Counted from the first letter of the stretch, positions 54,256 to 64,000 are shown. The stretch: 64,000 nucleotides of DNA from Candidatus Gastranaerophilales bacterium (GCA_944324945.1 CALUYE010000001.1:248001-312000); one strand, 5' to 3'. Made by a program: numbers and translations. Notes: a model not told the origin generated them from the letters alone.

Positions 54256-55908
54256 TTAATAATATCTTTCTTCTTTTTTTGCAACTACTGCATTATTCCC
54301 TTCTTCAAAATAGCTTTTGAATAACTCTTTTGCATTCAGGTTTGTTTTATGGGTTCTATTGCTTTTATAAATATTTTTTAATAAATCAAATTTTGTTTTA
54401 TTAAATAACTTTTCAACGTTTGCAAGATAATATGTCTTAGTTAAATCTATTGGTTTATTATCTTTTGTTGTTTTTACTAAATTACAAAGAGCAGAAGGTT
54501 CCATGCCTTTTTTTAAAAGAGCCAGCATGGTATTTTTATTGATTTTAATTCCGCTATATTGCAAAAGCGGATTTTTTTGATGATTTTTATCGTTAAATAA
54601 AATGTTATCGCAAATTATCTCAAGAAGTTCAAGACCTGTTACTTTGGATATTAAAATATTTGCATCTTCTTCTTTTATCCCGTTTAGAGTCATAACAAGG
54701 TGGGTGTTGTTAATTTGCCCTTCGTTTTGTGTTAACAGAGAACCCCTTATACTGCTTGAATTAAGAGCAAATATATCAACTTCGGGGTAGTATTGTTTGA
54801 TTTTATAAAATATAACATCCGTTATATAATTTGCAAGATAGTTGTTTTCAAATCTTATCCCGTCAAGCGTTAAAGAGACGTTGTCTGATGATGGAATTAT
54901 ATATTTTTGTTCTAAATCTTTTTTAAATAATTTATTATAAAATTCTTCAACATTTTTTTGTTTTGAAATTCTATCGTTTCTTACGGATTTTGTTTTGATT
55001 TCTTCTATATTTCCGTCATCGTCAAATTTTATTTTAATGTTTTCAAGTTTTGAAAAGTTTTGCGATAATTTAACAATTAAAGTATTTCCTGATATTGTTT
55101 TTTCGTCTTCATGCTCATGTGCGCTTAAAATTACGTTTATGGGGAGATTTTTTTTAAGAAGTTCTTTTTGAAATTCGCCTGCAAAATGATCAAGTAAAAT
55201 AACGACACCTTTTTTATTTTTTTGTTTAAAATCCTTGATTTCTTTTTCTGTTTCATAAAGCGAATTTTTAAAATCGTCAGGATTTAGTTTAGATTGAGCT
55301 TTATTAACGTTATCTAAAAAATCAATACCTTTTAATTTTTTATTATAATAGCTCATATTGGATGGAATTGTGCTTATAAAAAGAACTTCATGGGATAAAA
55401 AAGGGTTTTTATCGTCTTTAATTTTTATAATTTGTGATTTTGTGATTTTTTTCTTTTTATTAAGCTCAGAAAGCTCGGGGGAATTTTCAAGGTTAACGTT
55501 TGTCATAATTATTTTGCCGTGGATTTTATTCATGGAAGATGAAAATTCTTTTTCTCCCGCATCAAATTCATGGTTTCCGACAGAAAAAATAATTTCGCAA
55601 TGTCTTGATAGAGTATGGATGAAATGAATTAACTTATTTAAAAAAACAAGCTGATATTTTTGAGAATTCCAATCGGGATTTGTTTTATATCCCTTAACAT
55701 CCCCCGCCATAAACCAATCGCCTGCAACTATAAAAATATTTTTATTTCCTTCTTTTTCTTTTAGAAAGATATCTTGTTTATTTTCTTCAATTTTTGCGCA
55801 CAAATTTTCCATCAAACCGAGCTGCCCGTGAGTGTCCGAAAGAGCGTTAATATTTAAATTTGCTCCTTTAAAAGAGGGGGTGTTTTGGTTTATTGTTGTT
55901 ATTTTCAT
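54256..55908 (-). CDS. 5'-nucleotidase/calcineurin-like phosphoesterase
   Basis: A 550-residue protein: metallophosphoesterase domain (ALSDTHGQLG with Asp25 and His27, GDWFMAGD, GNHEFD, LSAHEHED) and a 5'-nucleotidase C-terminal domain (about 340-520, IFALNSSSIRGSLLT). UshA-type enzymes act in the periplasm, but this one has no signal peptide; its N-terminus is MKITTINQNTPSFKG. The first metal motif is Asp-Thr-His as in the family. The same N-terminal pattern occurs in the next gene upstream. It is close to recQ and might be co-transcribed. Confidence 0.85.
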   Translation of the reverse strand: MKITTINQNTPSFKGANLNINALSDTHGQLGLMENLCAKIEENKQDIFLKEKEGNKNIFIVAGDWFMAGDVKGYKTNPDWNSQKYQLVFLNKLIHFIHTLSRHCEIIFSVGNHEFDAGEKEFSSSMNKIHGKIIMTNVNLENSPELSELNKKKKITKSQIIKIKDDKNPFLSHEVLFISTIPSNMSYYNKKLKGIDFLDNVNKAQSKLNPDDFKNSLYETEKEIKDFKQKNKKGVVILLDHFAGEFQKELLKKNLPINVILSAHEHEDEKTISGNTLIVKLSQNFSKLENIKIKFDDDGNIEEIKTKSVRNDRISKQKNVEEFYNKLFKKDLEQKYIIPSSDNVSLTLDGIRFENNYLANYITDVIFYKIKQYYPEVDIFALNSSSIRGSLLTQNEGQINNTHLVMTLNGIKEEDANILISKVTGLELLEIICDNILFNDKNHQKNPLLQYSGIKINKNTMLALLKKGMEPSALCNLVKTTKDNKPIDLTKTYYLANVEKLFNKTKFDLLKNIYKSNRTHKTNLNAKELFKSYFEEGNNAVVAKKEERYY

Positions 55909-55927
55909 TTATTGTTTTATTTTAGCA

Positions 55928-56335
55928 CTATTTTTGGCGTCTTTCATTTCTGCTTTCTCTTGCAACATCTCTTGATAAATCTCTAAAGTCGTTTTCGACG
56001 CTTGTTTTATCGTATGTCGGATGGGTGTGCCTTGTAATTTCTTCTTCTGATGTAATAGGTTTTCTAAAGCGCGAGTTGTTTTTGCCCCCTGATACTTTAT
56101 CGACGCTAATATCGATATAGCCTGTTGAATTACTTTCATCTCGGGTTGAAAGCTTAATTCTATAGGTTTCATCGTGCGGGGTGCTGTTTTCTAAATTTCT
56201 TTTTAAAGTTCTCAATTCTCTTATAAATTCATCCCTGGATTGGCTTGTGAAATATTTTTCATCATTAGGCAATGAATTTAAATTTAGGATAACCTTTCCT
56301 TTGTAGGCTTGTGCGCTTATAGGAGAAATTTTCAT
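55928..56335 (-). CDS. 135-aa protein of unknown function with an MKI..YKG N-terminus
   Basis: A soluble, charged 135-residue protein starting MKISPISAQAYKGKVILNLNSL, with a strong AAAGGAGGT before the ATG. The rest has Arg/Asp/Glu/Ser-rich segments (YFTSQSRDEFIRELRTLKRNLE; SGGKNNSRFRKPITSEEE) without recognisable domain. The first 13 residues resemble the start of the adjacent 5'-nucleotidase-like protein. An alternative frame in the same DNA was rejected. It is 19 nt upstream of that gene. Confidence 0.7.
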   Translation of the reverse strand: MKISPISAQAYKGKVILNLNSLPNDEKYFTSQSRDEFIRELRTLKRNLENSTPHDETYRIKLSTRDESNSTGYIDISVDKVSGGKNNSRFRKPITSEEEITRHTHPTYDKTSVENDFRDLSRDVARESRNERRQK

Positions 56336-56969: not shown

Positions 56970-57836
56970 ATGCCCAATCTCTCAATCATAACACCCATAT
57001 ACAACACCCAAAAATACCTGAACCGCTGCCTGGATTCTCTAATCAACCAGACACTTAAAGATATAGAAATAATATGCATAAACGACTGCTCAACCGATAA
57101 CTCTCTTGAAATTTTAAAAGAATATCAAAACAAAGACAAAAGAATAAAAATAATAAACCTCAAAGAAAACAAAAAACAAGGATACGCAAGAAACATAGCC
57201 CTAAATGAAGCAAACGGAGAATACATAGGTTTTATAGATAGCGACGACTGGATAGATCTAAACTACTTCGAAAAACTCTACACAAAAGCAAAAGAACACA
57301 ATTGCGATATTGCACTGGCTACAAATGTTAGAATAGGCAACGGAATTACAAAAAAAAGATTAAACCTTAAAGAAGAAAAAATAGCATATACCCTGCAAGA
57401 AAAAATAGATTTATCCAATCAAGCAAAAAACCCCTGTCCCACAAATAAAATCTACAAAAAAGAACTCTTAATAAACAACAACATAATTTTTAGCGAAGGA
57501 TGCTTCTGCGAAGATAAATTATTTACCATAAAAGCACTTTACTATTCAAATAAAATGATATCTGTCCCGGGGATATACTATTACTATTTCAGAAATCCCT
57601 CATCAACTGTAAACACAAAAACAAATAAACACCTTCTTGATAAAAATAATGCAAGAAAGGCTGTTTTGGATTTTCTAAAAGAAAAAAACGCAAAAATTGA
57701 AGATCGGGGTTTTAGCGCAATTAAAAAAGATTACAGAGTTTTGAATCTTTTAATCTGGAGGATAAAAGAGACTCTTAAAAGCGAAATATATTATCTTTTC
57801 GGATATATAAAAGTTTTAAGAAAGGAAATAAGATAG
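56970..57836 (+). CDS. GT2-family glycosyltransferase
   Basis: A 288-residue protein with the GT-A nucleotide-sugar fold: LSIITPIYNTQKYLNRCLDSL, ICINDCSTDNSLEIL and the DxD region GFIDSDDWIDL. It transfers a sugar from a nucleotide donor to an oligosaccharide acceptor, in the cytosol. It lacks membrane helices apart from a possible amphipathic C-terminus. The 5' half uses C-rich codons (AAC, ACC, CTC) unlike the genes after it. First gene of the cluster, the next gene starting 0 nt after its stop. Confidence 0.9.
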   Translation: MPNLSIITPIYNTQKYLNRCLDSLINQTLKDIEIICINDCSTDNSLEILKEYQNKDKRIKIINLKENKKQGYARNIALNEANGEYIGFIDSDDWIDLNYFEKLYTKAKEHNCDIALATNVRIGNGITKKRLNLKEEKIAYTLQEKIDLSNQAKNPCPTNKIYKKELLINNNIIFSEGCFCEDKLFTIKALYYSNKMISVPGIYYYYFRNPSSTVNTKTNKHLLDKNNARKAVLDFLKEKNAKIEDRGFSAIKKDYRVLNLLIWRIKETLKSEIYYLFGYIKVLRKEIR

Positions 57837-59024
57837 GTGAAACTTCTATATAAAAGTGAAATTGAAGATATTAAAAAAAGCGGATATCTTAAAAGCGATA
57901 TTTCAATTACGGATGCATTAATTGAAAATTTTTACGAGGAAATTTTAACGCTTGAAGAAAAAAAGTTATTAAAATTAGCATTCAAAAATAACCCTTCTCA
58001 AGAAGAGCTTGATGAAGTTTTAAAATTATGGGATATAGAAGTAAAAGGAGCAAATAAATCTCTTTTATTATCTTATGTGTTAAAAAGACATCCTGATTTG
58101 AAATTTAGTTCCTATGAGGGGCCAAGACTCAAGGGGCTTTTGAAATTTTTCAGATTTCAAAATATGAAAGTAATTTCACATTTTGTAAAAATTACAAAAG
58201 TATTGAATGATAATAATATCATCCCCGTGATTTTAAAAGGCGGAGCTATGAGACATCTTGTTAAAGATTTACCCAGGGTTATGGGAGATGTTGATATTCT
58301 TGTTTTGGAAAAAGATTTTTATAAAGCAATCAAACTTGCACTTCCTTTGGGATACTATTTTGAAAAAATTGATGTTCATTCCGTTGATTTACATGACGAT
58401 AAAACAAAAGAAAACACTCTTGATATTCATAAATTTATTTATTTTAAAACAGGTAAACCGAAAGCATTTTTAAAAGATTTATTTAAAAGAGCATCCTTGC
58501 AAAATGTTTTTGGAGTTAAAGCTTATGTGCCATCGGATGAAGATATGGTTTTTATTATACTTGTTAACTTAGCGAGAAATTTAAGAGATAAAACAAGCCT
58601 CGGGGGACTTATTTATTCTCTATTTGATTGTAAATATTTTCTTGAAAACAATAAAAATTTTAACTGGGAAATTGTTAAAGAAAACGCCAAAAAAACCAAA
58701 ACACAAATTCAGATGAACTTTGCAATGAAATTTATTAATAAAATTTCTTGCGATATTTTCCCTTTGGAATTTCAAAAGGAGGCTTTATTTGAAGAAAAGA
58801 CAAACAATTATTCAAATACTGTTATTTATGAGAGATTTTATCTTGAAGATATAAGAGAAAAATCAAGAAATTTAAAAATTAAAGAAATATTTAAAGATTT
58901 ATCAAAATTCAAGCAGTATTTGAAAATAAAACCCCTGTATTTTTCTTTGAAACTTTTAAGAGGGCACCCTCTTTTAATTAAATTTTTTATAAAAGATTTA
59001 AAAACAAAGCAATACGATTTTTAA
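57837..59024 (+). CDS. NTP_transf_5-type nucleotidyltransferase
   Basis: A 395-residue protein starting with GTG at 57837 directly after the GT2 stop (AAGGAAATAAG as ribosome site). The Pol-beta-like fold is marked by ILKGGAMRHL (Gly-Gly at about 135-136) and MGDVDILVLEKDF, with further acidic residues (DIHKFIYF). This matches the uncharacterised nucleotidyltransferase family (NTP_transf_5, PF14907 pattern) found beside HPr-kinase-like and PqqD-like genes in peptide-maturation loci. Substrate unknown. It could transfer a nucleotide to a peptide, protein or glycan carrier. Confidence 0.78.
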   Translation: MKLLYKSEIEDIKKSGYLKSDISITDALIENFYEEILTLEEKKLLKLAFKNNPSQEELDEVLKLWDIEVKGANKSLLLSYVLKRHPDLKFSSYEGPRLKGLLKFFRFQNMKVISHFVKITKVLNDNNIIPVILKGGAMRHLVKDLPRVMGDVDILVLEKDFYKAIKLALPLGYYFEKIDVHSVDLHDDKTKENTLDIHKFIYFKTGKPKAFLKDLFKRASLQNVFGVKAYVPSDEDMVFIILVNLARNLRDKTSLGGLIYSLFDCKYFLENNKNFNWEIVKENAKKTKTQIQMNFAMKFINKISCDIFPLEFQKEALFEEKTNNYSNTVIYERFYLEDIREKSRNLKIKEIFKDLSKFKQYLKIKPLYFSLKLLRGHPLLIKFFIKDLKTKQYDF

Positions 59025-59037
59025 GATTGGAATAAAA

Positions 59038-60549
59038 ATGAGATTTGAAAATTTAGAAAAAAAAGAAATCAGAAATTGTTTTAATAATTTAAACGATTAT
59101 TTAAATTTAAAGGATAGAAAATATGTTAAATATATAGATTTAAAATGCGCCGTTATTCGTCTTATATCTTACAGTGCGGAATTTATTCCTTTAAGCGAAA
59201 AACAACTGACCTATGTTTTAAAAGACGATATGCCATATTATGATGCAACGTTAGTTGTTTGGAAGGAAGAAGATATGGAAAATCTTGCAAAAAAGATATG
59301 TGATAAATTTAACCCCAGAACAAATATGCGCCTTAGAATCGAATCTTTAATTTTTAAAGAAAACGATATTTTTGATATAGCAGTTAAAGATGATGATTTT
59401 TCTTTTAATAAACCTGTTATTGATATTCAAAATACAAGAGGGTTTTTTATCGGGAACGATTATCAGACAAACACTTATTATTACGGTGTCAGGAATCTTG
59501 AGCCTGAAGAATTTATTAAAGAGGGGCATATTTTTGTTCAATTTTTCAACAACATATTAAAAACAAAAACAACAAATCTTGTCCACGGCGCAGTTGTGGG
59601 GTTTGATGATAACGGAATTTTATTTTGTGCAAGAGGGCAGAGAGGAAAGTCAACTTTGGCGGTTTTATCAATGATAAAAGGCTTTGATTATGTTTCCGAT
59701 GATTATTTAATTTTATCAAAAGAAAATAATGAACTTTATTCTTATCCCATATATTCGATTATTACGTTGTCTCCAAGAATGTACAATGAATTATACGATT
59801 ATTTATCTTCTTCAAGGTTTGTATCAAATAACGCAAGAAAAGATAAATACGTTTTTAATATTTCCAATTTTCACGATAAATTTAAAGTTAAATATCCGAT
59901 TAAGCTTTGTATTTTTCCTGAAATTACATCAAATAAAAATCCTTCGATTTATCCTTGTAAAAAAGGACGCGCAATAGCGCAGCTTATTCATTCAACCCTT
60001 ATGCAAACGGCTGATTTATCGGACACTAAAACGGTTAAAAAGCTTATTGATATGGTCTATGATTTTGAATTTTATAAATTTGATTTATGCTGCGACATTG
60101 AAAAAAATACGAAATTTTTAAAAGAATTTATGAATGAATTTAAAAATAAAAAAGAAATTCAAAAATGTGAAAATTCAGAAAGATTTTATATTGATATAAC
60201 TTTTGACCTTGCCAATATAATCGATTCAACAACAGGTGCGATTTATTCAATGAATAAATTTGCTACTTGTGTTTATGAGAATTTAGTTGCAGGAGTTAAA
60301 AAAGAAAAAATAATTCAAGAACTTCAATATATCCCCAATATTGAAAAAAATATAAATTATTTAATTGATTCTCTAAAACAAAGAGGAATTTTGGCTGATA
60401 TTGTCGAAACGGATAAAAATCCTTCAATAAACAAAAGTTTTATTGAAGAATCGAAAAGTGTTTTATCAATACACCAATATTTTAATAAAGAATGCATAGA
60501 ACTTGTAAAGGAAAATAAGGAGAATAGAAATGAATTATGTATTAAATGA
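59038..60549 (+). CDS. HPr-kinase-like P-loop protein with C-terminal PqqD domain
   Basis: A 503-residue protein. Middle part: HprK-like ATP site LVHGAVVGF, ARGQRGKSTLAV (Gly203-Lys204-Ser205-Thr206) and GFDYVSDDYLIL with the metal-binding Asp pair. C-terminal part (about residues 375-465): a PqqD-like domain, FYIDITFDLANIIDSTTGAIYSMNKF followed by CVYENLVAG, the fold known as a RiPP recognition element. The first about 150 residues are not recognised. Such kinases phosphorylate peptides in lasso-peptide loci (paeninodin-type). The substrate may be bound by the PqqD domain. It overlaps the next gene by 20 nt. Confidence 0.78.
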   Translation: MRFENLEKKEIRNCFNNLNDYLNLKDRKYVKYIDLKCAVIRLISYSAEFIPLSEKQLTYVLKDDMPYYDATLVVWKEEDMENLAKKICDKFNPRTNMRLRIESLIFKENDIFDIAVKDDDFSFNKPVIDIQNTRGFFIGNDYQTNTYYYGVRNLEPEEFIKEGHIFVQFFNNILKTKTTNLVHGAVVGFDDNGILFCARGQRGKSTLAVLSMIKGFDYVSDDYLILSKENNELYSYPIYSIITLSPRMYNELYDYLSSSRFVSNNARKDKYVFNISNFHDKFKVKYPIKLCIFPEITSNKNPSIYPCKKGRAIAQLIHSTLMQTADLSDTKTVKKLIDMVYDFEFYKFDLCCDIEKNTKFLKEFMNEFKNKKEIQKCENSERFYIDITFDLANIIDSTTGAIYSMNKFATCVYENLVAGVKKEKIIQELQYIPNIEKNINYLIDSLKQRGILADIVETDKNPSINKSFIEESKSVLSIHQYFNKECIELVKENKENRNELCIK

Positions 60550-61003
60550 AGTAAAAATGTTTACCGATATCACAGACGGCATTGCAATTATAATAAACAG
60601 CGAAACAGGTATTTACTACGGGCTTAACGCTTTTGCGACGAATGTATATGAAAATATTGTCCGCGGAGTGTCAATTGAAGATATAAAAGAAGAATTAAAG
60701 AATATAAATCCCGAAAATAAAACCTTGTTTGATAATTTTGAAGCTTTTATTAAAGCAATGGCAGAAAAAGAAATTTTAATCTTATCGTCTGAAGATAAAA
60801 ATGAAACAGTGCAAATAGATAAAAATTCAGCAAAAGAAGATAACTTCATTCTTGAATTAAAAGAATACAATGACGCTCAAGAGTTACTATTAGCCGATCC
60901 AATCCATGAAGTTAAAGACGAAACAGGCTGGACTCCTGAAAAAGATTCGATGATTGAAGATAAAGAACTTGTTAAGCAAAGAGAAGCAAGGATGGAACAG
61001 TAA
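60530..61003 (+). CDS. PqqD-like protein with a polar C-terminal tail
   Basis: A 157-residue protein starting at ATG 60530 with AAGGAG upstream. Residues about 1-85 form a PqqD-like domain, TDGIAIIINSETGIYYGLNAF then NVYENIVRGVSIEDIKEEL, homologous to the C-terminal domain of the upstream kinase. Residues 90-157 are acidic and probably unfolded, with LLADPIHEVKDETGWTPEKD and a charged end. It may be a peptide-binding chaperone, or the domain and its own substrate peptide in one chain. No cysteine or obvious protease site is present in the tail. Confidence 0.75.
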   Translation: MNYVLNEVKMFTDITDGIAIIINSETGIYYGLNAFATNVYENIVRGVSIEDIKEELKNINPENKTLFDNFEAFIKAMAEKEILILSSEDKNETVQIDKNSAKEDNFILELKEYNDAQELLLADPIHEVKDETGWTPEKDSMIEDKELVKQREARMEQ

Positions 61004-61005
61004 TA

Positions 61006-64000
<2,995 letters not shown>

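Follow-up and report, generated by a model that had tools for sequence, protein, structure and literature searches.

A co-inherited nucleotidyltransferase, kinase and PqqD cassette of Gastranaerophilales as a possible peptide- or protein-phosphoglycosylation module

What might genes familiar from peptide modification be doing among glycosyltransferases? The question is raised by a 64,000-nucleotide stretch of Candidatus Gastranaerophilales bacterium DNA (GCA_944324945.1 CALUYE010000001.1:248001-312000; hereafter 'the window'), in which reading of the open reading frames (ORFs) revealed three adjacent genes on the + strand. An earlier note made from the sequence alone (the original prediction) had assigned them to a nucleotidyltransferase (NTase) of the NTP_transf_5 type, an HPr-kinase-like protein (HprK) with a C-terminal PqqD domain and a second PqqD-like protein, here called PqqD2. 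The genes and their parts are listed below, where RRE denotes the recognition element of ribosomally synthesized and post-translationally modified peptides (RiPPs) and HKDD a His-Lys-Asp-Asp residue set. The first two ORFs are separated by 13 nt, and the second and third overlap by 20 nt.

57837-59024, + strand: NTP_transf_5 (Pol-beta-like) nucleotidyltransferase, 395 aa, GTG start (PF14907, 2.7e-22)
59038-60549, + strand: HprK/PEPCK-fold kinase with a C-terminal RRE, 503 aa (AlphaFold and Foldseek)
59572-60147, + strand: kinase core, residues ~179-370, with HKDD residues H183/K204/D221/D222 (homologue alignment)
60184-60387, + strand: C-terminal RRE (PqqD-like) of the kinase, residues 383-450 (PqqD2 profile, 6.0e-20; RRE-like secondary structure in the model)
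60530-61003, + strand: PqqD2, second RRE protein, 157 aa, RRE residues 1-86 followed by a C-terminal tail (Z 11.1 to TbiB1; Pfam PqqD, 20.9 bits)
60863-60940, + strand: near-invariant tail peptide of PqqD2, residues 112-137, EYNDAQELLLADPIHEVKDETGWTPE (conservation in homologues)

Co-inheritance of the cassette and its spread

The possibility that the three genes are scattered and unrelated, which had been named as a potential objection, is contradicted by the recurrence and co-inheritance of the trio. Kinase, PqqD2, NTase and a ~220-aa family 2 glycosyltransferase (GT2), designated GT2_220, were each found in the identical 12 of 28 genomes of the genus, even where they lay on separate contigs; the chance of the same 12 of 28 being drawn is 1/C(28,12), or ~3e-8, if relatedness is ignored. 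Class-wide (382 genomes), strong kinase hits and GT2_220 occurred in 32 genomes each, with 31 in common (31/33 agreement among genomes with either), and the sole GT2_220-only genome contained a truncated hit. The test thus covered one genus and one class. GT2_220 was recognized as a subfamily because it stands apart from the other GT2s of the loci (at least 246 bits against ~180 or less), and the smallest operons, with the order NTase-HprK-PqqD2-GT2-GT2_220 (loci L073 and L092), end in it. A compact operon of NTase, HprK and RRE protein is seen again in ~65 loci. Judging from this distribution, the cassette is almost certainly one real, co-inherited system. The original prediction had overlooked both this dedicated GT2 and the peptide, near-invariant and joined to PqqD2, that is described below.

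In the genome collection 77 loci were found, nearly all with the NTase-kinase-PqqD2 trio, on contigs labelled as Melainabacteria, Bacteroidota, Pseudomonadota, Desulfovibrio, Spirochaetota, Planctomycetota and Deferribacterota. A quick kinase tree placed the alphaproteobacterial kinases among those of Gastranaerophilales with strong support and therefore suggests that the cassette has been transferred horizontally, with the proviso that loci from metagenome-assembled genomes may include misbinned contigs. A plasmid of the cultured cyanobacterium Crinalium epipsammum PCC 9333 carries the order PqqD - NTase - HPr kinase - FkbM - glycosyltransferase, and none of its kinase and PqqD proteins, with WP_232229449.1 as the PqqD protein, reached an NCBIfam cut-off. 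In eight free-living cyanobacterial genomes ten additional tails were found, all of them next to an HprK and to GT2s scoring with the GT2_220 profile. A phage-borne origin was rejected, as viral contigs yielded no relative, and so was a role as a defence system, as PADLOC gave no match. In one Spirochaetia locus (L060:2129-3720) the order is NTase-PqqD2-kinase, followed by a second RRE protein without the DPIHEV tail.

Family assignments of the three proteins

All three family calls of the original prediction held, the NTase by PF14907, the kinase by its model and HKDD residues, and the RREs by their models. In the profile checks that had been proposed, only the NTase scored well above its cut-off (80 bits against 31.2), whereas the kinase and PqqD calls remained sub-threshold and were upheld by structure. 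PF14907 was matched by 49 of 50 NTase homologues, most of which keep the motif K134-G135 ... D151-x-D153; a sequence search for a relative in the PDB found none. The kinase scored 18 bits with HPr_kinase_C (cut-off 33.3) and 27.8 bits with HprK_rel_A (cut-off 200). Its AlphaFold model (pLDDT 91.7, pTM 0.89) matched PEPCK (1j3b/2pc9) and HprK (1knx/3tqf) with a Foldseek probability of 1.00, and across 54 homologues H183, K204 and D222 never vary and D221 hardly does; they correspond to the HKDD set reported to be catalytic in lasso-peptide kinases (PMC9266682).

PqqD2 fell just under the Pfam PqqD cut-off (20.9 against 23.4 bits), and its model resembled the lasso-peptide RREs TbiB1 (Z 11.1) and TfuB1 (Z 10.5); Foldseek and VIA matches outside RRE folds were set aside as unspecific. 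The C-terminal PqqD domain of the kinase is weak by Pfam and NCBIfam, but the PqqD2 profile matches it at E 6e-20, so that the two RREs are homologous. According to the models, PqqD2 has the winged-helix RRE fold, and the kinase C-terminus is an RRE as well. Kinases of many other lineages are ~370 aa long and lack the C-terminal RRE.

Three congeners (L031, L032 and L033, corresponding to loci L081, L080 and L079) carry two NTases each. The kinase-adjacent copy is without the LKG and GDxD residues (FNDG..., INDIN...) and is possibly a pseudoenzyme or scaffold, to judge from its residues, and an intact copy lies divergently upstream, beside GT2_220. In the Bacteroidales loci L103 and L104 a second, degenerate NTase-like ORF occupies the kinase slot before PqqD2.

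A near-invariant peptide fused to PqqD2

The mean majority-residue fraction over 56 sequences reached 0.88 in tail residues 112-137, compared with 0.55 in residues 34-84 of the RRE and 0.45 in the linker. When homologues were aligned on DPIH, D(-8), L(-3), D(0), P(+1) and H(+3) were identical in 67 of 67 gut and cyanobacterial sequences, with GW following, and the core D..L..DPxH..GW is near-invariant across phyla. Bacteroidales PqqD2 proteins end right after this motif. Among cyanobacteria the tail has the general pattern [F/Y]xxPxLxKYTDMxxLLxLDPIHEVDxxGWP. The cyanobacterial tail, FEKPxLEKFTDMEDLLLLDPIHEVDxxAGWPN, carries FxxPxL or YxxPxL, the spacing of which equals that of the [Y/W]xxPx[L] leader motif; RREs of lasso and LPP systems bind [Y/W]xxPx[L/V/I/F/A] in leader peptides (PMC13381572). 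Within the genome of the window the tail motif occurs in PqqD2 and in no other protein, and among the loci it is found almost always once per locus. In a phylum search nearly all tail matches lay in RRE-sized frames and the others in longer frames, one of them a fusion. The natural fusion of locus L205 reads RRE - YAPPSLSTYNDLAELLLLDPVHEVDAAAGWP - RRE-like - HprK in a single 649-aa frame.

In the PqqD2 model residues 98-113 are confidently folded and residues 121-140 are not, which would be compatible with a docked proximal, leader-like part and a free distal part. Judged by its sequence, the tail resembles a RiPP precursor that has been joined to its own RRE. Two candidates concerning PqqD2 were discarded: Ser140 as a phosphosite, as it is absent in Bacteroidales and cyanobacteria, and a PqqD2-GT2 fusion in UBA947 (L063/L146), as the join spans ambiguous bases at an assembly gap.

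The search for conserved short ORFs or missing enzymes that had been recommended yielded GT2_220 and the fused tail but no small-ORF family. Comparison of the 1,185 small ORFs lying within 10 kb at 78 loci gave no family present in more than 3 loci, and no separate precursor was found near the cyanobacterial cassettes. As a positive control, the scan recovered the leader-bearing small ORF of Calothrix L115, an outgroup locus in which a distant NTase/RRE pair is accompanied by a typical ORF of this kind (L115:12791-12949; MNKKSYVKPQLIVHGDIEEITLQG...). In place of the missing precursor, the peptide fused to PqqD2 becomes the main lead.

Missing partners were sought as well. As had been predicted, there is no lasso cyclase in the cluster, none of the Asn-synthetase-like C protein type (macrolactam cyclase) being found among the operon ORFs and domains, with no genome-wide search, and the transglutaminase-like leader protease B2 (PF13471) gave no match in the whole genome. 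An archaeal-type signal peptidase I was recognized neither in the operon nor among the annotated recurring families, no genome-wide search being made. In gut-type (non-Bacteroidales) operons no initiating glycosyl-1-phosphate transferase, flippase or polymerase was recognized, and only two of these operons encode a multi-transmembrane protein, an ABC exporter. No description of this cassette was found in the open-access literature, which is not proof of novelty.

A proposed phosphoglycosylation mechanism and its alternatives

After the four co-inherited parts come further glycosyltransferases and sugar-nucleotide genes, which vary in kind. We tentatively propose, from these gene contents, that the operon constitutes a peptide- or protein-phosphoglycosylation module, which would agree with the phosphorylated, nucleotidylated or glycosylated peptide or protein considered possible in the original prediction. 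Phosphoglycosylation of a peptide or protein that PqqD2 presents is favoured because of the peptide of its own, the dedicated and further GT2s, the lack of a recognized lipid-linked assembly enzyme or flippase in gut-type, non-Bacteroidales loci, and the precedents of PsmN and LPP. The paeninodin-type kinases PadeK and ThcoK phosphorylate a Ser of the lasso precursor, and hexose addition to phospho-Ser requires the nucleotidyltransferase-annotated PsmN (PMC9266682), while the LPP kinase polyphosphorylates a peptide and, together with its RRE, sits in capsule loci (PMC13381572).

In such a scheme the proximal tail, [F/Y]xxPxL in cyanobacteria and derived forms elsewhere, would dock on an RRE in a leader-like manner, in cis or between chains, so that the LLxDPIHEVxxxGWP segment would be held out. 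The kinase would then phosphorylate the presented acceptor, the NTase-like enzyme would add a sugar or nucleotide to that phosphate by analogy with PsmN, and the dedicated GT2, followed by the variable GT2s, would extend the glycan. The contrast between variable glycosyltransferases and a near-invariant peptide makes the tail resemble a fixed primer or scaffold, and not a bioactive peptide that diversifies. The parts of this scheme differ in strength: the cassette probably acts on a peptide or protein through RRE presentation, the chance that the PqqD2 tail itself is the presented peptide or acceptor falls a little short of even, and the whole chain as written is more tentative still. Rather unlikely, in our judgement, is its most specific form, in which the near-invariant acceptor peptide, carried in cis by the RRE protein itself, would be primed by a kinase and by an NTase-like phosphosugar transferase, and glycosyltransferases would assemble a cytoplasmic phosphoglycan upon it, an arrangement conserved between free-living cyanobacteria and gut bacteria.

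Several observations weigh against phosphoglycosylation of the tail. No Ser, Thr or Tyr of the tail is conserved in all lineages, the cyanobacterial Thr not being kept, so that an acceptor of the kind usual for HprK-type kinases is missing from the tail. Either an unusual residue is modified, or a different molecule is the acceptor and the tail would be a docking motif; the phosphate could be placed on another residue (D, H), a sugar or another protein. A leader peptidase is not part of the core. Docking of the tail in cis is at most suggested by confident secondary structure in the model, which is confined to residues 98-113. Beside the cassette of some Bacteroidales loci lies a flippase-like protein (Polysacc_synt, sub-threshold) or one of the GtrII type, and hence a lipid-linked glycan is possible there. 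Finally, LppN showed no visible activity in B. subtilis (PMC13381572).

The lack of a conserved hydroxyl residue would suit a tail that is a docking or regulatory peptide and not a substrate, with PqqD2 as an adaptor bringing kinase, NTase and GT2 to an unlinked acceptor, a protein or peptide encoded at another place in the genome, that is phosphorylated and glycosylated. Near-invariance is also typical of motifs at protein interfaces, kinase and PqqD2 are fused in L205, and discrete RREs serve as adaptors in lasso and LPP systems. Yet no conserved acceptor gene lies within 10 kb, and the tail itself contains the leader-like FxxPxL/YxxPxL, which an adaptor would not need; we consider this alternative rather unlikely. 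Less probable still is a purely carbohydrate pathway, in which a sugar or the end of a glycan would be phosphorylated by the kinase and then activated or capped by the NTase to give a nucleotide- or phospho-modified surface polysaccharide, with the RREs in a structural role. Sugar activation is commonly performed by a kinase plus a nucleotidyltransferase, and the operon contains glycosyltransferases and gmd, with UDP-galactose mutase and UDP-glucose dehydrogenase genes in other loci. Against this, PF14907 is Pol-beta-like and, as we take it, not of the NDP-sugar pyrophosphorylase family, RREs bind peptides, and the invariant peptide and its co-inheritance would be unexplained. Excision of the invariant peptide to a fixed, glycosylated small molecule, as for pyrroloquinoline quinone (PQQ) or mycofactocin, is very improbable: PqqD-family proteins and glycosyltransferases do recur in invariant-peptide cofactor pathways, the DPIHEV...GW segment is near-invariant across phyla and a minority of loci have radical SAM genes, but the cassette has no peptidase or universal oxidative enzyme, radical SAM and aldo-keto reductase (AKR) genes being accessories only, and we know of no consumer enzyme for such a product.

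Relation to known systems

The link to paeninodin-type peptide modification drawn by the original prediction is borne out, as the same kinase, NTase and RRE families are involved (PMC9266682, PMC13381572). Like the paeninodin and pseudomycoidin lasso systems (PadeK/ThcoK/PsmK, PsmN, B1), the cassette comprises an HKDD kinase, a nucleotidyltransferase-annotated enzyme and a B1-type RRE, and PsmN-dependent attachment of a hexose to phospho-Ser provides the chemical precedent. Unlike them, the cluster lacks a precursor gene, leader protease B2 and cyclase, its peptide is near-invariant and there are several glycosyltransferases; a lasso precursor has a YxxPxL leader and a variable core, whereas here a YxxPxL-like motif occurs only fused to the RRE. 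LPP systems (Popov et al. 2026, PMC13381572) likewise combine a discrete RRE, an HprK-like kinase and an NTP transferase in capsular polysaccharide or exopolysaccharide loci without a macrolactam cyclase, and often an MsbA-like exporter, plus a signal peptidase. In contrast to LPP, the cassette has no separate precursor, its peptide is fused to the RRE, its core is without a signal peptidase, a dedicated GT2 is co-inherited, and it is hosted by cyanobacteria and by gut bacteria from other phyla. The hallmark of LPP is a polyphosphorylated core Ser, and the aligned tails have no conserved Ser.

An HprK-related kinase and a PqqD-family protein also form one system in HPr-rel-A of NCBIfam (TIGR04352, TIGR04353), but our kinase and that of Crinalium scored 27.8 and 38.7 bits against the cut-off of 200, and TIGR04353 matched PqqD2 at best with E 0.099, in 1 of 12 members. 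The SynChlorMet cassette (ScmC, ScmD) has HprK-like and PqqD-like proteins too; here the ScmD match was 13.7 bits (cut-off 100) and there was no conserved radical SAM pair. By sequence comparison, the cassette is best read as related to the paeninodin/LPP tailoring module yet distinct, as it lacks defining features of both; it belongs with kinase/NTase/RRE peptide modification, and a categorically new use is possible. If the proposal is correct, a RiPP-style recognition module (RRE, kinase, NTase) would have been converted into machinery by which glycan assembly is initiated on a genetically encoded peptide, or would have arisen from the same source as such machinery. This would account for the kinase/NTase/RRE trios that recur in capsule and exopolysaccharide loci, which was left open by the LPP authors, and gut bacteria would be shown to possess a surface-modification system that can be transferred. 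A version in the cultured Crinalium epipsammum PCC 9333 makes the system directly testable.

Operon surroundings and minor observations

Tight coupling to glycosyltransferases, as predicted, was evident from genes that nearly touch in one operon; the + strand genes from GT2 to gmd nearly touch or overlap, and the window stops within the operon. The further genes of the run are the following, the last four lying beyond the window on the genome contig and being given in window-equivalent positions.

56970-57836, + strand: GT2 glycosyltransferase, first gene of the operon (PF00535, 149 bits)
61006-63120, + strand: double glycosyltransferase (GT2 and GT4-type), 704 aa, directly 3' of PqqD2 (PF00535 and PF13692)
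63044-64000, + strand: gmd (GDP-mannose 4,6-dehydratase), continuing past the window end (named from sequence, no profile basis)
64111-65331, same gene run: GT4-like protein
65297-66859: GT8-like protein fused to a ~220-aa GT2 (GT2_220)
66870-68921: aldo-keto reductase fused to a radical SAM domain
68884-70734: ABC exporter

The first GT2 is 52-59% identical to the GT2 lying upstream in three congeners, and GT2 genes of similar length lie immediately 5' of the NTase in ~15 related loci. Neighbourhood comparison showed that the position after PqqD2 is occupied by GT2 proteins in most related loci. The gmd gene belongs to the same operon but is accessory, its family being present in 12 of 78 loci. 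The absence of a radical SAM enzyme, another element of the original prediction, holds inside the window only, as the AKR-radical SAM fusion and the ABC exporter follow in the same gene run. The fusion within the operon has the locus coordinates L026:11871-13922, and L052 contains one too. Separate AKR or radical SAM genes, both families counted, occur in 28 of 78 related loci and are common accessories of these loci.

On the - strand of the window, positions 55909-56335 contain a pair of ORFs, 87 and 135 aa long, that overlap in different frames, the longer without a Pfam match. Several proteins of the genome (window 54256-55908 and 55928-56335; L026:15762-16517) have MKI-x(n)-FKG-like N-termini, for example NTPSFKGANL, SAQAYKGKVI and SRSISYGGE, reminiscent of an N-terminal signal common to the lineage.

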